A DNA stretch of 64,000 nt from Cylindrospermum stagnale PCC 7417 (lineage in GTDB: Bacteria > Cyanobacteriota > Cyanobacteriia > Cyanobacteriales > Nostocaceae): positions 1,463,001 through 1,527,000 of the forward strand of contig NC_019757.1 in assembly GCF_000317535.1 (NCBI RefSeq), in the 5' to 3' direction. Below are positions 10,418 through 21,290 of the stretch, one piece after another. Below the pieces are notes generated by a model. That model ran no database searches. It saw nothing but the letters and a program-made list of their open reading frames with translations, and was not told the DNA's origin. How positions within the stretch are numbered: the stretch's first letter is position 1; every line of letters begins with the position of its first letter. Position numbers and translations under genes: made by a program.

Positions 10418-10951
10418 ATGCCAATCTTTGATTCATCATTCGATTCTTCAATTCTTAATTCTCAGCAGAATGCATTCACCAAAAGTTCTCGCAATGTAAT
10501 GGAAGTGCTTGTGGTAGAGGAGGTAGAGAAACAATTCCAATCCTTGCCCGCTAAAACGGCTAAATACATTAAGGCTTCTGAGGTGATTGCCTATGCCCTG
10601 AATCGTCTACCTGCTCTGTATGCTACTAGCAAACGAGGGTGGCAGCGGCAATGGCATCGCGGAAAAACCGAGATGTATCAGAAAATCACCACGGCTGTGC
10701 GGCAGGGAATTATTGCTGTACAGCAAGATCCTCTACGTGCTAACGATCTTCTGATTTTCCCAGACGAGGATGCAGCATCGGCTGCTTTGCAAGGACTAAA
10801 GGTTTTGCTCCAACGTGAAGATATATCGTGGGAAAACTTAACTGATGTGGTTAAACAAACATTGATCAATACCTCGCGAGGGAAGATTACTTGGCGTCAA
10901 CCTGGTCGTCCGGACAATCAACTATTTGACTGGGAGAAACATCAGATGTGA
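10418..10951 (+). CDS. ComFB-family protein (late competence development family)
   Basis: 177 residues. The region from ~26 to 120 (NVMEVLVVEEVEKQF, SEVIAYALNRLPALYATSKR) is a ComFB domain. Cyanobacterial ComFB proteins have been reported as cyclic di-nucleotide receptors affecting motility and competence (established for relatives, not shown here). A 25-residue Ser/Asn-rich N-terminus precedes the domain, and a C-terminal extension ends GKITWRQPGRPDNQ. Its stop codon at 10949-10951 lies one base from the stop of the convergent kinase gene at 10953, so the 3' ends must interact transcriptionally. The ATG is the first in the open frame and the ribosome-binding site is weak. Confidence 0.82.
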   Translation: MPIFDSSFDSSILNSQQNAFTKSSRNVMEVLVVEEVEKQFQSLPAKTAKYIKASEVIAYALNRLPALYATSKRGWQRQWHRGKTEMYQKITTAVRQGIIAVQQDPLRANDLLIFPDEDAASAALQGLKVLLQREDISWENLTDVVKQTLINTSRGKITWRQPGRPDNQLFDWEKHQM

Positions 10952-13779: not shown

Positions 13780-16380
13780 ATGTTAAATCTTCAAAATCGC
13801 TTCCGTAAGTTTGGTAATGGCTCCCTAAGTAATCTAAAATTGGGCGACTGGACAATTAAATCTAAGCTGCAAGCGTTGCTCTTAGGAGTTAGCCTCGGTT
13901 CTGTAGTGGTAGTTAGCGGGATTGGTTGGTATCAAACACAAGCCACCCTCAGAAGCAAAATCGCTGACCAACTTGCAGGTATAAACAGCACCAAAGCCGA
14001 GCAGTTCGAGTCGTACTTTGAAAATTTAAACAACCAAGTGGGGATGCTGGCAGCAGACAGCAACATCGTTAAAGCAATGGTGGAGTTGAATGGGGGTTTC
14101 CGCAACCTAGATCGGAACTTTATTCCCCCTGAATGGGATACTGCAATAGATGCTTACTACAACGAGCAATTTTTGCCGCTGTTAAAAAAGAATTTATCCC
14201 CTGAAGAACTGAACCCCAGCGTTTATCGTCCCACCGGACAAGCAGCTCGCTATCTCCAGTATCATTATCTTGCTTCTAATCCCAATCCAGTAGGCAAAAA
14301 AGACAAGCTACTCGATGCTGGTGATGGGAGCAATTATACTAAAGCTCATGCCAAATATCAAAATTTTTTTGCAGGAATTGTTAAAAAATTCGGTTATTAC
14401 GATTTATTTTTGATTAACCATAAAACAGGGGATTTAATCTATTCCTATTTTAAAGAAACAGATTTTGCCACTAATGAGTTCCAGGGTGTTTACTCCCAGA
14501 GTGCACTATCGAATTTGGTGCGGACAGTGCAGACAAATCCGACAAAAGGTAGCATTCAGGTAGCTGATTTTAAGCCTTACCGCGCCTCTTATGATGCTCC
14601 CACCGCTTTCGTGGCAACGCCCATTTATAGTGGTTCTAACATGATTGGCATCTTGGCGGTGCAAGTACCTGTTGACAAGATCAACCAGGCTATTAGCCGG
14701 AATAATAATTGGGAAGGTAGTGGTTTGGGTAAAACGGGAGAAGCTTATTTAGTCGGGCCTGATTCCCTAATGCGTTCAACATCTCGTTTTTGGGTTGAAG
14801 ACCCCAAAAAATATCAAAATGTTGCTCGTTACATGGGGACTGATCAGAAAACTCTCCAACTGATGGAGAACTTCAACACTACCATTGGCTTACAGAAGAT
14901 CAAGAGTCCAGCCGCTCAAGCCGCTTTGGAAGGGCAACAAGGCATGATAGTAACCCGCAATTATCGGGGGGCAGAAGTATTAAGTTCCTACGCTCCTTTG
15001 AAGTTGAACGGGTTAAATTGGGCGATTCTGGCAGAGATAGAGGTGGGGGAAGCCTATCGTCCGCTTTACACGTTAGAGATAATTTTGCTGATTGCGGCGG
15101 TGATTTTCCTACTGGGGACGTCGTTTTTAGCGGCAATTGTTGCAAGGATTTTTACCTCTCCCCTACGTCACTTGACTGAGAGTGCCCGGAAACTTAGTGC
15201 GGGGGAAATGGATGTGGACGTTGAGGTGAAATCCCAAGACGAGTTTGGGGAATTCGCAAAAGAGTTCAAAGCGGTGGCGAACAAATTACGCCAAACTGAA
15301 GAGCAGCTAGAGATCAAGAAGCAAGAAAATAGTATTCTCTTGCAGAATATCCTACCCAGCGCGATCGCCGAACGCAGGAAACAAGGAGAATTGCTCATTG
15401 CCGACAGCTTCAAGCAAATAACCATTCTCAATGCTCATGTGGCAGGTATTGCTGAGTTGAACAAGCGGATGTCACCCACAGAGGTAACCCAACTGCTTAC
15501 CCAACTATTTAATGAGTTTGACCAAACGGCAGAGCACTACGGCATGGAACGGCAGAACACCATCAGTACAAGCTACATGGCAACCTGTGGACTCACCCAA
15601 GCTAGATTTGACCACAGCAAACGAACTGTTGATTTTGCCCTAGCTATGTTAGACATTATCCAGCGTATGGATAAAAGTCATAATTCTGCTTTTGGCTTAC
15701 GCATCGGCATTCATGCAGGTTCGGTAACAGCAGGGGTAGTCGGAACTCAGAGACTTGAGTACGTCATTTGGGGGGAAACGGCATATTTAGCAAGCCGCCT
15801 ACAGACCCAAGCTGAGTTGAACTATATTTTGATCACTCAGAGTGTGTACGAACGGGTAGCAGATAGCTTCACATTCATCCAAAACCCATCGATAAAAGTT
15901 CAAAGCCTGGGAGAGGTAGAAACTTGGACACTTGTCACTACTAGGAAGTTAGTTCCTTCTCAGGTGGATTTGGTTCAGTCATCCTTCGCCAAAGTCAAGC
16001 CCATCGCTGATAAAGCTGCTGAAATATTCTACAACCGACTGTTTGAATTAGCACCTTCTTTTCGTCCTCTATTTAAGGGGGATATGAAACAACAGGAGCG
16101 TAAGCTAATGAATACCCTTGCTCTTGCCGTGGAAGGTTTGCGTCAGCCAGATCAGATTATCCCTGCCGTCCAAAAGCTGGGTCGCAACCATGCGGGTTAT
16201 GGTGTCAAGGCTGAATACTACGATATTGTCGGCGAAGCTTTGCTGTGGACGTTAGCACAAGGACTGGGTGAAGATTTTACTACGCCAGTGCGAAAGGCAT
16301 GGGAAGAAGCCTACACATTCTTGAGCGAAATTATGAAAGAAGCAGCAGCAGAACTTGAGTTGGAAAAGATCGGTGTATAA
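13780..16380 (+). CDS. dCache-HAMP-cyclase-like-globin fusion sensor
   Basis: 866 residues. TM1 is at ~29-50, an extracytoplasmic dCache-type sensor at ~51-428, TM2 at 431-457, HAMP at ~455-508, a signalling helix with NILPSAIAERRKQGE, a class III nucleotide-cyclase-like domain at ~540-720 and a globin domain at ~728-852. The cyclase fold is clear (RIGIHAGSVTAGVVGTQRLE, WGETAYLASRL). However, the first metal Asp is replaced (NAHVAGIAEL, His553), the second lies in ISTSYM (Thr597) and the transition-state Asn is Tyr669, so ordinary cyclase activity is unlikely. The globin resembles bacterial haemoglobins, with B10-like Tyr751 (IFYNRLF) and proximal His804 (GRNHAGYGV). An MscS-type channel gene follows after 74 bp. 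It may sense an external ligand together with O2, NO or redox state. The architecture is unusual. Confidence 0.88.
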   Translation: MLNLQNRFRKFGNGSLSNLKLGDWTIKSKLQALLLGVSLGSVVVVSGIGWYQTQATLRSKIADQLAGINSTKAEQFESYFENLNNQVGMLAADSNIVKAMVELNGGFRNLDRNFIPPEWDTAIDAYYNEQFLPLLKKNLSPEELNPSVYRPTGQAARYLQYHYLASNPNPVGKKDKLLDAGDGSNYTKAHAKYQNFFAGIVKKFGYYDLFLINHKTGDLIYSYFKETDFATNEFQGVYSQSALSNLVRTVQTNPTKGSIQVADFKPYRASYDAPTAFVATPIYSGSNMIGILAVQVPVDKINQAISRNNNWEGSGLGKTGEAYLVGPDSLMRSTSRFWVEDPKKYQNVARYMGTDQKTLQLMENFNTTIGLQKIKSPAAQAALEGQQGMIVTRNYRGAEVLSSYAPLKLNGLNWAILAEIEVGEAYRPLYTLEIILLIAAVIFLLGTSFLAAIVARIFTSPLRHLTESARKLSAGEMDVDVEVKSQDEFGEFAKEFKAVANKLRQTEEQLEIKKQENSILLQNILPSAIAERRKQGELLIADSFKQITILNAHVAGIAELNKRMSPTEVTQLLTQLFNEFDQTAEHYGMERQNTISTSYMATCGLTQARFDHSKRTVDFALAMLDIIQRMDKSHNSAFGLRIGIHAGSVTAGVVGTQRLEYVIWGETAYLASRLQTQAELNYILITQSVYERVADSFTFIQNPSIKVQSLGEVETWTLVTTRKLVPSQVDLVQSSFAKVKPIADKAAEIFYNRLFELAPSFRPLFKGDMKQQERKLMNTLALAVEGLRQPDQIIPAVQKLGRNHAGYGVKAEYYDIVGEALLWTLAQGLGEDFTTPVRKAWEEAYTFLSEIMKEAAAELELEKIGV

Positions 16381-16454
16381 AGTAACAATTTAACTAATCG
16401 AATTGGCTGAAATATACTCACTATTTACTGTTTATGGTTCGTTAAAAAACAGTC

Positions 16455-17942
16455 ATGGATAAATCACTTCTGGGATGGATATTGCTTTTGGGTCTGGGAT
16501 TTCCATTGTTGGGTATACTGCTTGGTGAAGCAGCCTCAAGATTAGAACGGCAGCAACACCCCTTAGCAGTTGGTCTACGTCAGGTGCGCGAGTATGTGTT
16601 ACCTCCCTTAGCCGTGATCTTGGTAATGCGACAGCTTTTAAGCATCGCTGGCAAAGATTCCTGGGCACGTTTTGTGGAAACTTTAACTTGGGTTGCCGTT
16701 ATTGTCGCGGGACTTTCTTTAATCAACGCTTTGTTGACCACAAAAAAACAACCGATTAAATGGCAAATTCATGTACCTAGCCTGTTCTTTCAGGTAGCTA
16801 GGGGTGTAGTGATCTTCGCCATTGGCTATCACATTCTCAATGGAGTTTGGAATATAGATTTGACTGGCTTGGGTTCCACTGTAGGGATAGCTTCAGCCGT
16901 AATTGCCCTAGCGTTGCAAGATACCCTCAGTAACCTGGTGTCAGGATTACTATTGCTATTTGCCAAACCGTTCAGAACGGGTGATTGGATTGAGATAGAT
17001 GGAAAGCAGGGACGGGTAATTGAACAAAACTGGTGGTCAGTCACGATGAAAAATCCGGCGATGACATTCAACGTTCCCAATGGGGTGTTGTCGAAGGCAA
17101 GCATTATCAATTACGGTCAGAGAGGAATCTGGAAGAGTATTTACGCCTCATTTTCTTATGACGATTCTCCTAGTCAAGTGATTTCAGCCCTAAATACCTT
17201 GACGGAGGGTATAGATCTGATCGAAGCCAAAGATCCTGCTCTGGTTAGTTCCTATGAAGACTCCAGTATCACATACAAGCTTTCCTATACAGTACTGCCT
17301 GAAAAAGATTGGATCGTTGCTGCGGAACTCAAATTTCGACTTTACTACATAACCAAACGTTATGGCTTTACTATGCCTTATCCAATTCAAGTGCAGTACG
17401 ACGTTGAGGCGAAACTTGGAATACCTTGCCTAATTCCCCAAGTAGTCGAGAACCGCCAACAGGAATTAGTAACTTATTTGCGATCGCTTTCTTATTTCTC
17501 GACGCTTAATGATCATCAGATTGAGAAACTAGCTGAACGGGCTAGATTTAAAGCCTACGGTAAGGGTGAGTTAATTATCACAGAAGGTAAAGAAGACGAG
17601 GGACTTTATATTATCTTCAAGGGCACGGGACACGCCTATCTAATCGATGAGCAAGGTGAGCGCCAGATAGTGGACGAGCTTGAACTTAACGAAGCATTCG
17701 GGGAAATGGCGATCTTTCCAGGGCAGGTAAGTCCGGTTACAGCCGTTGCCGATGAGGATGTTGAGGTTGTAGTGATTCCAGCCAAAGAGATTGTCCAAGC
17801 GATCGAGTCTAACAACAAATTCGCTTCAGAGATTCTTCAGTACATCGAAGAACGGAAAAAAATGGTTCTACTTGCTAAAGGAATCAAAGACGCGGCGAGT
17901 TCATTAATTAGTCACAATGGTCGCCGGGTGCAAGTGGGATGA
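16455..17942 (+). CDS. MscS-family channel with C-terminal cyclic-nucleotide-binding-like domain
   Basis: 495 residues. Three to four membrane helices lie between residues 5 and 135. The MscS pore and beta domain follow at ~138-225 (GLGSTVGIASAVIALALQDT and KPFRTGDWIEIDG), with a cytoplasmic vestibule to ~325. A CAP_ED/cNMP-type beta-roll occupies ~343-450 (GELIITEGKEDEGLYIIFKG, FGEMAIFPG). In cNMP-binding members the phosphate cassette carries Arg after the FGE motif; here the segment reads GQVSPVTA with Ser/Pro at that place, so cAMP binding is doubtful. It lies 74 bp downstream of the cyclase-globin gene, and its stop overlaps the start of the PstS-like gene, indicating one transcript. It probably passes ions or small solutes under control of a cytoplasmic signal. 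Confidence 0.9.
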   Translation: MDKSLLGWILLLGLGFPLLGILLGEAASRLERQQHPLAVGLRQVREYVLPPLAVILVMRQLLSIAGKDSWARFVETLTWVAVIVAGLSLINALLTTKKQPIKWQIHVPSLFFQVARGVVIFAIGYHILNGVWNIDLTGLGSTVGIASAVIALALQDTLSNLVSGLLLLFAKPFRTGDWIEIDGKQGRVIEQNWWSVTMKNPAMTFNVPNGVLSKASIINYGQRGIWKSIYASFSYDDSPSQVISALNTLTEGIDLIEAKDPALVSSYEDSSITYKLSYTVLPEKDWIVAAELKFRLYYITKRYGFTMPYPIQVQYDVEAKLGIPCLIPQVVENRQQELVTYLRSLSYFSTLNDHQIEKLAERARFKAYGKGELIITEGKEDEGLYIIFKGTGHAYLIDEQGERQIVDELELNEAFGEMAIFPGQVSPVTAVADEDVEVVVIPAKEIVQAIESNNKFASEILQYIEERKKMVLLAKGIKDAASSLISHNGRRVQVG

Positions 17943-19048
17943 TGAGGATAACCAGAGCAAAGCTTTACAGGAGTTGCTTATTTTTGAGCGGCATGGTTTT
18001 ACTATTGACAGCCTGCACCCAAGGGTCAAAAACCTCAAAGGCAAAGATTGACAATCAAGCCAGTGCAGACAAGACCTCAAAAGCAGACTTAGGGATTCAG
18101 CAGGTTGAGCGTAAATTAGTTAAACCCCCCTCAACCCAAGACTCAGCTAAACAGGGCATTGTACTGCCAGAGGTAAAACCCCTGGAACTGGAGGGAACAC
18201 TGGCGATATCGGGAACTCAGGTAGTTTTTCCCATTAGTCAGGCTATTGTTCAACGCTTTATCCAAGACGGGTATCCCAACAAGATTGATCTGGCTGGTAT
18301 TGATACTCAGGTTGGCTTCAAACTATTTTGCGAGGAGAAAAAGGCAGATATTTTCAATGCAGTTCGTCCGATTACTAGTCAGGAGTCAGCCGTCTGTGCC
18401 AAGTCAGGTGTTGAGCCGATAGGCTTTCAAATTGCCACCGATGCAGTGACTATTGTAGTTAGTTCTCAGAATAATTTCGTTCCCAACAATTTGACGCGCG
18501 ACGAAATGGCAAAGGTATTCACTGTCGAAAAGTGGTCAGATGTGAATCCCAAATGGCCAGCGGAATTAATTAAACGCATTGTCCCGGCGGGTGCTGGTAC
18601 GGGAGACTCAGTTGAGTTGTTTGCCCAAGCTATCCTCAAGGGGAACGTTAGCCAACTTATTAATGCTGCCAATACGATATCTTATGACTATGTAGAGCAG
18701 TTGCACTCAGAAGCTTTAATTAATCCCTACATGGTTGGCTTTTTAGAGTATAGCTCCTATAAACAAAACCGAGACAAGCTGAAGGCGATCGCCATCGATG
18801 GAGTTGCCCCTGAGCAGTCGGGATATCCTCTAACCCGTCCGTTATATATTTATGCAGATGTCAAAGCGATTCAGCAACGACCGGAAGTAAAAGGATTTGT
18901 TAACTATTACTTGACCAATGTGAACGAAGAAATTCCTAATTTGGGCTACTTTCCCGTCAAAGCCACCGTATTGGATGAGTCAAAAACTAAGTTTTTGCAA
19001 GTGAAGGGTAATCAAGAGTTATTGAAGGAAGCAAGTAAGAAAAATTAG
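17939..19048 (+). CDS. PstS-like phosphate/substrate-binding lipoprotein
   Basis: 369 residues. The lipobox LLTAC places the lipidated Cys at residue 26, so the protein is membrane-anchored in the periplasm. The mature part is a PBP-like domain of the PstS type: ISGTQVVFPISQAI, DIFNAVRPITSQESAVCAKS, DAVTIVVSSQNNF, VPAGAGTGDSVELF. The usual Gly-Ser-Ser/Thr phosphate loop is GTQV, so phosphate specificity is uncertain. Its start overlaps the stop of the MscS gene (ATGATGA at 17939-17945), implying translational coupling. No pstCAB genes follow, so it is not part of an ordinary phosphate importer. It may be a ligand sensor or accessory protein for the upstream dCache sensor or channel (inference). 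Confidence 0.82.
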   Translation: MMRITRAKLYRSCLFLSGMVLLLTACTQGSKTSKAKIDNQASADKTSKADLGIQQVERKLVKPPSTQDSAKQGIVLPEVKPLELEGTLAISGTQVVFPISQAIVQRFIQDGYPNKIDLAGIDTQVGFKLFCEEKKADIFNAVRPITSQESAVCAKSGVEPIGFQIATDAVTIVVSSQNNFVPNNLTRDEMAKVFTVEKWSDVNPKWPAELIKRIVPAGAGTGDSVELFAQAILKGNVSQLINAANTISYDYVEQLHSEALINPYMVGFLEYSSYKQNRDKLKAIAIDGVAPEQSGYPLTRPLYIYADVKAIQQRPEVKGFVNYYLTNVNEEIPNLGYFPVKATVLDESKTKFLQVKGNQELLKEASKKN

Positions 19049-19208: not shown

Positions 19209-21290
19209 CTAGAAATTTTCCTTTCTATAGCCAAACCCGTATTTAGTGCAGAGATGCCTCAACTGTAGTGCAAGTCCAGTTGGCCCGCAGAAAAATACTT
19301 CAACATTATCAGGTGCGTGTTGTTTTGCGACATCTTTAAAAATTTCTTCCCAGTCTGGACGACCAGTTTTTGTCCGGCTCTTTAAGCCTGTAATCAAATC
19401 AACCTTCGTCTCTTGATGCATTAAATCCATTGCCACAAATAGGGTGCTGGATTTCATATCTGATTTTTGCTGGGCACCTGTGAGATATAAATTCAGGTCA
19501 AATAAATTGTTAGTGTCTTCGGCTTCGATTTTCGACAACAGTTCAACAAACCATTCAAAAGCTTTTTGCTCTCGGTTAAGCCAGTAAAAATGTACCTTTT
19601 TCAAAGGCATTTTTGCAGGATTCTGTTGGTTGCGGTGCAAAATACTTTTCAGGATAGAGGCAAATGGAGTAACGCCAATACCAGCACAAATAAGTATTGC
19701 ATACTTGGATTCAAATATATGCGTACTTGGTGTGCCATAGGGGCCATCTATATAGACTGGCACTCCTGGTAGGGACTGAGAACTACCTGACCGTATCCAT
19801 TCTTCTCTCTGTTCTCGGATAAGTTGATATAGCTTTCCAGTCCAACTACCTACGGCACGGATATGTAAAGTTAAAACATCCGGCATTTCAGGAGCGCTAC
19901 TAATTGTAAACGGATGCCATTCAAATTTGGATATACCGGGACACTTAATAAATAAGTAATCCCCTGGTTGATAGTTGAAAGATTGCGGACGTTGGACTTG
20001 CAAGCCTAGAACTTTAGAAGGAAGTAAAGAGGCATTAACCACAAAGGTTGGTTCTTTTGTTGTCTTCCAGCGGATAACCAGTTCGATAATGAATCCCACA
20101 ACGGGTAATAATACCCACTGCCAAAAAACTGGCCCGTGAATTAAAGCTAGAGCAAACCACAGCACATAACCCATGTGAGCTATATAGAAAAGCGCAAATT
20201 TTCCGCCTTTGCGTATTGGTGCTTGTGCCGTTACCCACATAATTATGAAAACTAGCAGTAACAAAAATCCTGATATACCTGCCTTGGTTCCAAAAAGACT
20301 TTGTGCGAAGGGAATTGGCAATGTCGTGTAATTTAGAAAATGTGCGCCAGTATGCACAATTGCTAAGGCAAACATCACTTGACCAACTAGCTTGTGAAAC
20401 TCGATGCTCTCATCTATAGGGATATAGTTGTTAATAGTTGTTTTGCGAAGCCAAGTCATAAAATGCCGCAACATGGGAATGAGGATCAGCGCACCATTTA
20501 AGTTAAGGGTGGCGCCACAACCTCTGGCAATTTGAACGTATAAATTTGCGCCTTGGCTTTCGTATTTTTCAACTGCCGACATGAAGAAAAACATATTAAC
20601 AAAAACATAGAGGGCTAAAAAAGCGATTTTGACCCAGTTGTTTTCGATATAATACTTGATGTAAGCTTTTTGTGAATCCATTCGCTCTTTGGGCAAAACT
20701 GCTATGGAGTCTTGCTTGTGAGGTTTTAACCAGCTAATGGGGCTAACTGTCATTGCCTCAATCAGATCGGGGAATTTTTCGATTAAACCTTTGAATTCAG
20801 CAAAAGAAATTTCGCCGCTTTTGTCAGCGTCAGCTTCTCGAAACAACAAATCGACTAGCTCGTTTATTTGTTCTGGTGAAAAGCTGAGATTGTTTTCTTT
20901 CAAGCTAGCAGTAATTAAGTGAGAAATTTCTGCTTTTTCTATGCAACCATCCCCGTTAACGTCGTGTAATTCGTAAGCAAATTGCAGTTTTTCTTCGCTG
21001 GTTGCAAAAACGAGGTTTTCTACAGTTGTTAAAAATTCTTCTATTTTAATAGTGCCGCTACTATCAGTATCAAATATAGAAAAAAGCCGATCTACAAAAT
21101 ATTCATCTTTCAACCCTAAAGCTGACTTAAATTCTGCTTGATCAATTTGTTTATCTTCTTTAGCTATCTGGGTAAAGACCCGTCGCAATTCCTCTAGAGT
21201 TTTTTTAGGTGTATCCACAATGATATTAATCTCTGTCCTTGTGAGAAATTCATTATGGTACTTAAGTGATAATACTGTCAATAACCCCAA
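19209..21290 (-). CDS. Calcium-dependent NADPH oxidase, NOX5 type
   Basis: 693 residues. It moves electrons from NADPH through FAD and two haems to oxygen, making superoxide on the far side of the membrane. N-terminal EF-hands are visible (loops starting near Asp74, Asp110 and Asp154: DTDSSGTIKIEEF, DVNGDGCIEKAEI, DADKSGEISFAEF), with one degenerate hand before them. Six helices at ~210-410 carry haem ligands His299/His372 and His313/His385 and the oxygen-pocket residues Arg256, His317 and Trp378. The FAD motif HPFTISSAP (459) and NADPH motifs (CAGIGVTPF, FCGPTGLA) follow, and the chain ends in Phe693. These numbers equal those published for Cylindrospermum stagnale NOX5. The start is a TTG. 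It is convergent with the globin/MscS/PstS operon. Confidence 0.95.
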   Translation of the reverse strand: MGLLTVLSLKYHNEFLTRTEINIIVDTPKKTLEELRRVFTQIAKEDKQIDQAEFKSALGLKDEYFVDRLFSIFDTDSSGTIKIEEFLTTVENLVFATSEEKLQFAYELHDVNGDGCIEKAEISHLITASLKENNLSFSPEQINELVDLLFREADADKSGEISFAEFKGLIEKFPDLIEAMTVSPISWLKPHKQDSIAVLPKERMDSQKAYIKYYIENNWVKIAFLALYVFVNMFFFMSAVEKYESQGANLYVQIARGCGATLNLNGALILIPMLRHFMTWLRKTTINNYIPIDESIEFHKLVGQVMFALAIVHTGAHFLNYTTLPIPFAQSLFGTKAGISGFLLLLVFIIMWVTAQAPIRKGGKFALFYIAHMGYVLWFALALIHGPVFWQWVLLPVVGFIIELVIRWKTTKEPTFVVNASLLPSKVLGLQVQRPQSFNYQPGDYLFIKCPGISKFEWHPFTISSAPEMPDVLTLHIRAVGSWTGKLYQLIREQREEWIRSGSSQSLPGVPVYIDGPYGTPSTHIFESKYAILICAGIGVTPFASILKSILHRNQQNPAKMPLKKVHFYWLNREQKAFEWFVELLSKIEAEDTNNLFDLNLYLTGAQQKSDMKSSTLFVAMDLMHQETKVDLITGLKSRTKTGRPDWEEIFKDVAKQHAPDNVEVFFCGPTGLALQLRHLCTKYGFGYRKENF

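Follow-up and report, generated by a model that had tools for sequence, protein, structure and literature searches.

A conserved cyanobacterial sensor-channel gene pair with an often degenerate cyclase site and an altered nucleotide pocket: a candidate receptor-operated channel

Sensory cells employ relays that combine a receptor cyclase with a cyclic-nucleotide-gated channel, and bacterial cyclic-nucleotide-gated (bCNG) channels of the MscS superfamily reportedly join an MscS-type channel to a C-terminal cyclic-nucleotide-binding domain (CNBD). Here we describe a related set of parts in the cyanobacterium Cylindrospermum stagnale PCC 7417 (assembly GCF_000317535.1; 7.6 Mb), encoded in a 64,000-nucleotide stretch of contig NC_019757.1 (positions 1,463,001 to 1,527,000, forward strand) that we refer to as the window. 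Based on open reading frame (ORF) calls, Pfam matches and residue alignment, three plus-strand genes follow each other: g1 (13780..16380; 866 residues), a sensor pseudo-cyclase with a C-terminal globin, g2 (16455..17942; 495 residues), an MscS-type channel with a C-terminal CNBD-like domain, and g3 (17939..19048; 369 residues), a PstS-like lipoprotein. The sensor-cyclase and the channel are the constant core, a conserved two-gene cyanobacterial unit; most cyclases of this unit have lost catalytic residues, and nearly all aligned channels carry a serine at the position of the phosphate-site arginine of the nucleotide pocket. We propose, with about an even chance in our estimate, that the unit would act as a receptor-operated channel, in which the cyclase fold would serve mainly as a relay that couples directly, by conformation, to the partner channel.

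All parts are of known kinds. Like the bCNG channels, g2 has an MscS domain and a C-terminal CNBD in one chain; it differs from them in the arginine-to-serine exchange and in its near-constant pairing with a sensor-cyclase gene. g1 shares domain order and fold with membrane class III cyclases bearing Cache and HAMP domains, but in its family catalysis is eroded in most members, with five of six residues lost in the window and a C-terminal globin present in one group. As in the relays of sensory cells, a sensor-cyclase is paired with a CNBD channel, although here both cyclic-nucleotide ends are altered. Pycsar systems, which combine a TIR or transmembrane effector with an intact cyclase, likewise place a class III cyclase (PycC) beside a CNBD protein, but the present unit has an outward-facing receptor and an MscS-type effector, and the window cyclase has lost its residues. 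Pycsar models, taken from a library without cut-offs, gave only weak, domain-level matches with the window proteins (best E-values 1.1e-5 for PycC and 9.3e-9 for PycTIR) and with a member carrying a complete cyclase site (L086; 1.4e-14 for PycC and 1.9e-8 for Effector, TIR), and on these grounds a Pycsar-type defence system was rejected. Globin-coupled sensors carry an N-terminal sensor globin and a C-terminal transmitter. g1 resembles these and the HemAC-type proteins in joining a haem globin to a signalling protein, but its globin is C-terminal (residues 750-849) and its cyclase degenerate; HemAC-Lm is named in PMC12755159. Finally, g3 shares the PBP_like_2 domain with PstS phosphate-binding proteins, but scores below the family cut-off and shares its operon with the sensor and channel genes. 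No published description of the sensor-cyclase/channel pairing was found in the open-access library searched, which covers few papers from subscription journals; to our knowledge, neither this combination of parts nor the loss of the cyclic-nucleotide link on both sides has a known counterpart.

Conservation of the sensor-channel pair

We surveyed 291 genomes of the order Cyanobacteriales, scoring up to three g1 and up to five g2 candidates per genome, and 292 genomes of the phylum; the counts within the order are therefore counts among the matches listed. Within the order, the g1 query retrieved eight full-length globin-bearing copies of the window clade (the window included), two distant globin-bearing copies and one globin-bearing fragment. 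Together with 75 further matches that cover the dCache region, fragments included, these make up 86 g1 places, a number that counts only matches covering dCache, with two rows of genome G188 merged and cyclase-only rows left out. A g2-family profile yielded 82 channel matches; in 73 cases a g1 match lies no more than 6 kb away, and in 72 of these it is on the same strand. Correspondingly, g1 was found in 67 of the 291 genomes, g2 in 65 and both in 64. Among the nine unpaired channels, two adjoin a g1 or cyclase fragment that had remained unscored in the first search (L106, L107), two lie 10-11 kb from a g1 and two begin at a contig start, leaving those of G129 and G051 and a fragment in G247.

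A second set comprised 80 named loci, selected as the best among 459 hits of a profile built from unit members; due to this origin, they provide no estimate of how frequently family members stand without a partner. In 71 of them a channel gene follows within five ORFs downstream of g1, in 66 as the next ORF on the same strand. In two others, L127 and L150, the channel lies upstream of g1; of the remaining seven, four have at most one ORF before the contig end, and L169, L186 and L198 contain no channel in the stretch fetched. The median gap between g1 and g2 is 27 bp (63 pairs). Outside the order but within the class, the phylum set contributed units from four genomes, and strains of Cyanobium and Synechococcus are present among the named loci. 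Carriage on plasmids was rejected, as no g2 match at an E-value of 1e-40 was found among 72,556 plasmid records.

The two genes also share their history. Pairwise distances of g1 and g2 correlate with a coefficient of 0.95 across 88 non-redundant pairs (maximum in 2000 permutations, 0.16), and 45 of 56 strong splits of the g1 tree recur in the g2 tree, with 41 of 50 recurring in the reverse comparison. Such agreement is expected of any jointly inherited genes and thus indicates co-inheritance, not contact.

An earlier reading of the window, made from the sequence alone (the sequence-only reading), had put forward all three genes as one module and pointed to their conserved adjacency as a check. 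Its layout of a plus-strand trio with a 74-bp gap between g1 and g2 and a 4-bp overlap of the g2 stop with the g3 start (ATGA) matches the ORF coordinates exactly, and Pfam agrees domain by domain with its list of parts (sensor, cyclase-like domain, globin, MscS/cNMP-like channel and PstS-like lipoprotein). Adjacency across genomes proved to be a property of the g1-g2 pair, whereas lipoprotein and globin occur only in subsets of the family. Since the first two genes are near-constant and the other components are not, we rejected a system specific to the trio.

No terminator-like site was found between g1 and g2, and the sole promoter-like match between them (16390-16418) is at chance level, with 11 such matches in the region versus 9.7 expected. 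All gene starts were taken as longest-ORF starts, and overlaps may for this reason look larger than they are. In Cylindrospermum sp. NIES-4074, the closest relative with a name that was found, g1 is 92% identical and the three genes follow each other as in the window.

Several variant arrangements were observed. Three tandem sensor-cyclases precede a single channel gene at L075:7791-15133 and L077:7154-14413, while two tandem channel copies stand behind one or two sensor-cyclases at L080:2813-5867 and L118:4312-7360. At L103:5604-15023 (minus strand), one of the two cases in which the channel lies 10-11 kb from a g1, a gene for a 3139-residue non-ribosomal peptide synthetase/polyketide synthase separates a globin-bearing g1 from g2 and g3. 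A 906-residue frame at L099:2203-4923 (minus strand) fuses dCache-HAMP to the channel and its CNBD; the cyclase is absent, as are helices one and two of the channel, and the breakpoints relative to L149 are sharp. We did not use this fusion as proof of contact, since it lacks these parts, stems from one short contig of an incomplete genome and has relatives in which the genes are separate.

Catalytic residues and nucleotide pocket

The cyclase fold of g1 (residues 542-718; 15403..15933, plus strand) matches the Pfam family Guanylate_cyc with an E-value of 8e-39, and its closest solved relatives, by sequence comparison, are class III cyclases (E-values down to 1e-39). In the alignment, His553 occupies the position of the first metal-binding aspartate, Asn593 that of the base-reading lysine, Thr597 that of the second metal-binding aspartate, Val662 that of the base-contacting aspartate and Tyr669 that of the transition-state asparagine; Arg673 is the only one of the six catalytic residues kept. 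We take these six positions to have the roles implied by these names, reading D, K, D, D, N and R in active class III cyclases. In the window copy, these positions thus hold H, N, T, V, Y and R, and this g1 is not expected to make cyclic AMP (cAMP).

Across the family, we condensed 158 unit proteins to 117 non-redundant cyclases by removing sequences in which a scored site was a gap or X, together with those of at least 95% identity. The first metal aspartate is present in 56 of these, the second in 82 and both in 49; the base site holds lysine or arginine in 88, the asparagine is kept in 59 and the arginine in 22. All six residues are found together in ten. Class III cyclases outside the unit look different: when we took the best 30 of 132 matches in unit-bearing genomes, all 23 non-unit cyclases kept both metal aspartates, the asparagine and the arginine, as compared to none of the seven unit members among these matches, aligned by the same procedure. 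For a second control, 40 more loci with mostly lower-scoring class III cyclases were fetched, of which 38 were readable (L302 and L303 gave no model match); 33 of the 38 keep these four residues, bringing the pooled figure to 56 of 61. The five degenerate cases (L280, L288, L290, L291, L292) include partial or weak matches.

In a tree of full-length g1 proteins (73 rows, duplicates among them, midpoint root only), two deep branches are apparent. One mostly keeps the metal site and has often lost the arginine; in the other, which includes the window copy, the position of the first metal aspartate never holds aspartate. For the comparison of branches and neighbours, L085 and L046 were left out as duplicates of L102 and L103. 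When the residues are mapped onto a phylogeny that uses only the dCache and HAMP regions, the minimum number of changes is seven at each metal aspartate, ten at the asparagine and nine at the arginine, with two gapped rows set aside.

The fold itself is well preserved. Among 40 aligned g1 proteins, many fold residues are conserved to at least 90%, with G604, D611, G647, W664, G665, F699 and W716 among the invariant ones, while the catalytic columns hold many different letters. When the window copy was compared with the seven near relatives for which an estimate was obtained, the ratio of non-synonymous to synonymous substitution rates (dN/dS) of the cyclase domain was 0.24-0.57; in all but one of these pairs it was higher than that of the globin. 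Taken together, erosion of the site, the kept fold and the dN/dS values are the pattern of what is probably a pseudo-enzyme, retained for its shape under somewhat relaxed constraint.

The pocket of the channel is altered as well. g2 comprises an MscS beta-domain (MS_channel_2nd, residues 156-220; 16920..17114, plus strand) and a CNBD-like domain (cNMP_binding, residues 366-453; 17550..17813, plus strand), in which Ser426 (codon 17730-17732) takes the position of the phosphate arginine and Glu417 is kept; the cassette reads FGEMAIFPGQVSPVTA, as opposed to FGEM...PRSA in many CNBDs of the same genomes. An alignment of 53 sequences, drawn from the eligible channels of the named loci (62 listed plus the window), has serine at the phosphate position in 51 cases, with asparagine and threonine in the other two, and retains Glu417 in 50. 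By our own reading, 19 of 26 control CNBDs from the same genomes have the arginine (best 30 of 64 matches, four of them unit members), as do all 14 of the weaker g2-profile matches in the phylum, MscS-CNBD proteins outside the unit such as L273.

The sequence-only reading, which had noted that both nucleotide-linked domains lack key residues, is borne out on this point for cyclase and channel alike. It had also held that orthologues with intact cyclase and cNMP sites would speak against it. Intact cyclases do occur, in the ten members mentioned above, but an intact cNMP site beside them was not seen: nine of their channels are readable, eight with serine and one with asparagine and none with arginine, the tenth being cut by the contig end. 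Among 102 channels, two have an arginine at or next to the phosphate position (L078 and L064, adjoining cyclases that read DKTEKG and DKDDNT), a count that represents our manual reading, as a script flagged ten with arginine anywhere in a seven-residue span; none of the 102 combines a complete cyclase with a complete phosphate-arginine site.

Loss of the arginine with retention of the glutamate is how a change of ligand would be expected to look. The CNBD-like pocket may accordingly bind a different, less charged small molecule, such as a nucleoside or another metabolite, with g1 modulating its supply or tuning the channel, an alternative that we consider unlikely but the most serious competitor of direct coupling. 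There is a precedent for nucleoside binding by a CNBD without the arginine, in that regulatory subunits of trypanosomatid protein kinase A (PKA) have lost the same residue and bind purine nucleosides, as described in PMC10959531. Sequence comparison of the g2 CNBD also retrieved 6ftf, a structure of the trypanosomatid PKA group named in the same paper. However, the second mark of nucleoside binding given there, glutamate in place of the cassette alanine, was not seen in the 53 channels, which have alanine, threonine, serine, valine or leucine at what we assign as this position, the alanine after the methionine of FGEMA. Nor does a change of ligand alone account for the tight pairing with a sensor-cyclase.

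A second alternative, that a cAMP relay persists, appears slightly less probable still. In this case, complete members would signal through the atypical pocket or through other targets, and degraded members would form mixed dimers or use cAMP made elsewhere. The ten complete unit cyclases are in line with this idea, and so are the other class III cyclases of the window genome: eight were read (L203, L222, L274-L279; the partial L280 set aside), and all but one keep both metal aspartates, the asparagine and the arginine. At L124:5726-7579 (plus strand; the same as L039:4416-6269), a CHASE2-cyclase with its catalytic residues present lies directly upstream of a globin-bearing g1. A working cyclase-channel relay also seems to exist elsewhere in the phylum. 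At L271:3682-7394 (minus strand), an arginine-bearing MscS-CNBD channel directly adjoins a complete CHASE2-cyclase on the same strand, and at L270 a complete CHASE2-cyclase follows such a channel downstream, with one small ORF between them; all eight fully aligned cyclases in loci of arginine-bearing channels keep the two metal aspartates, the asparagine and the arginine. Several of the genomes concerned are small and presumably belong to picocyanobacteria. Because of L271 and L270, a pairing of an intact cyclase with an arginine-bearing channel appears to exist, of which the dCache unit looks like an altered counterpart. On the other hand, none of the nine readable channels beside complete dCache-type cyclases has the arginine, the window copy retains just one of its six catalytic residues, and a scan of genes neighbouring the window unit showed no further cyclase.

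A candidate receptor-operated channel

g1 has the topology of a transmembrane receptor. Hydropathy and Pfam analyses delineate a first transmembrane helix (residues 30-48; 13867..13923), an extracytoplasmic dCache region (residues 49-433; 13924..15078), a second transmembrane helix (residues 434-452; 15079..15135) and a HAMP domain (residues 454-505; 15139..15294), all on the plus strand. The Pfam model dCache_1 reaches 44.9 bits, just below its cut-off of 45, and the mean column identity of the region is 57% in 18 members. A profile of these 18 sequences found no solved-structure relative at an E-value of 0.01, and we abandoned the assignment of a ligand by this route. The same type of dCache-HAMP sensor is found at L100:6794-9238 with a methyl-accepting chemotaxis protein (MCP) output in place of the cyclase.

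In the receptor-operated channel that we propose, dCache would sense a signal from outside the cell, in the window lineage possibly with the help of the PstS-like g3, and HAMP would pass it on to a dimer of the cyclase fold at the inner face of the membrane. Acting as a relay and docking body rather than mainly as an enzyme, this dimer would touch the CNBD-like domain, or the ring of such domains, of g2 and thereby alter channel gating, while the globin of the window copy might supply the relay with a further input from the cytoplasmic side, either O2 or NO. It is part of this proposal that the serine-bearing pocket would no longer read cAMP in the standard way. A receptor-operated channel would explain why the pair is retained despite repeated catalytic loss, and also why fold residues are kept and the cAMP pocket is non-standard even beside complete cyclases. 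The suggestion of the sequence-only reading that the module may signal through conformation or gas binding to gate a channel thus receives support in its sensor-to-channel part, while gating by gas cannot be general, the globin being confined to a minority of loci.

A number of observations weigh against such a channel or limit its reach. The ten complete cyclases may be active, and 49 members keep both metal aspartates, so that cAMP output is possible in the branch that mostly keeps the metal site. Degenerate cyclase-like genes also occur outside the unit, as in five of the 38 of the second control. Cyclase loss does not explain the exchange of arginine for serine, because the exchange is present in both branches of the g1 tree. 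The constant serine together with Glu417 suggests a selected pocket, possibly for another ligand; direct coupling does not explain this constancy and leaves room for such a ligand. At L124, cAMP made by the neighbouring CHASE2-cyclase is conceivable, given that this complete enzyme adjoins a g1 of the window clade. The L099 fusion, finally, may be a product of decay or of misassembly.

With regard to its origin, the unit may have passed from a cAMP relay to a receptor-operated channel, the messenger having been dropped at both ends, the cyclase converted to a protein-protein relay, the pocket turned into a docking or alternative-ligand site, and the lipoprotein and globin inputs added later. 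We regard this course of events as possible, though somewhat short of an even chance. A unit of this origin would correspond, in bacteria, to the ligand-gated channels, put together here from components of second-messenger signalling. If direct coupling is correct, evolution would have led from signalling by a second messenger to a receptor that acts on its channel directly, and the stages in between, with complete, partly eroded or strongly eroded cyclases next to one kind of channel, would still exist within a single phylum. An MscS-type channel would also be assigned a defined signal from outside the cell. The roles of CNBDs without the arginine and of pseudo-cyclases would be directly testable with a two-gene construct, and for most members the label "adenylate cyclase plus cAMP-gated channel" would be doubtful.

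Globin, lipoprotein and neighbouring genes

The globin of g1 (residues 750-849; 16027..16326, plus strand; Pfam Globin, E 3e-14) is the only match to PF00042 found in the window genome. It keeps the positions of the proximal histidine (F8) and of Phe CD1 (GRNHAGYGV and LFK in the alignment), hallmark residues of haem globins as named in PMC6104048, whose places in this alignment we assigned. All of the window clade, and also Calothrix sp. MO_167.B12 (L125), retain the proximal histidine. Tyrosine replaces it in three distant members (L048, L103, L127), and for this reason haem binding may be lost or changed in these. Among solved structures, the g1 globin is closest to 3wfw and 3s1i, two globins of Methylacidiphilum; the source organism of 3S1I is named in PMC6104048. 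For 3wfw, we take the organism to be Methylacidiphilum. On the dCache tree, globin presence changes twice, while the full-length tree unites both globin groups with a support of 0.845; since the two trees differ, one origin and two origins are both possible.

Could the unit of the window lineage be mainly a gas or redox device, with a globin that binds or scavenges O2 or NO and the rest a decaying remnant? The proximal histidine is kept in near relatives, the globin is the domain of highest identity among the four in six of seven near pairs (one of them a tie), and separate globin genes recur beside units at four non-redundant loci (L121, L136, L141, L156). However, each of the four domains has dN/dS values below 1 throughout the seven near pairs, a fused globin is present in just 21 of 154 g1-bearing loci (a total that includes loci occurring in both the genome and the named set), and the tyrosine-bearing members have parted with the histidine. 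We consider a gas device improbable, the least likely of the alternatives. A gas-binding signal may apply to the window copy, where the histidine is in place, but is not a general principle of the family, and direct coupling from sensor to channel remains our preferred account of the unit as a whole.

The separate globins take different forms. At L121, a gene for a 141-residue globin lies between g1 and g2. Pentapeptide-repeat proteins with two globin domains are encoded at L136:10801-12786 and L141:6539-8458, beside units of the branch with complete or nearly complete cyclases. Just upstream of the unit at L156:1267-6465 (plus strand; the same as L060:2116-7314), a 1732-residue globin-NO-synthase combines globin, NO synthase oxygenase and reductase domains with a C-terminal LCIB-type carbonic anhydrase domain.

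In g3, PBP_like_2 covers residues 86-326; the best solved match is 4jwo (E 9.5e-30), and the score against the PstS family TIGR02136 is 126.1 bits, below the cut-off of 206.6. Relatives of g3 sit with members of the eroded branch, namely the window clade, L047-L051, L054, L056, L071 and L113. Matches to periplasmic-binding-protein domains near L075, L077 and L176, which belong to the other branch, are several genes distant, and L105 has g2 and g3 with no g1 nearby. We dropped the idea that the lipoprotein is statistically associated with a missing first metal aspartate, as only four independent pairs were available.

Convergent with g3, the window encodes an EF-hand NADPH oxidase (NOX5-like; 19209-21287, minus strand). 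Cylindrospermum sp. NIES-4074 has a 93% identical copy on the opposite side of its unit. Across 100 loci (20 unnamed and 80 named), this gene is near the unit only in that nearest relative, on the other side, and we rejected it as a part of the unit. Further upstream, a ComFB-family protein is encoded at 10418-10951 (plus strand), between two sensor histidine kinases on the opposite strand.

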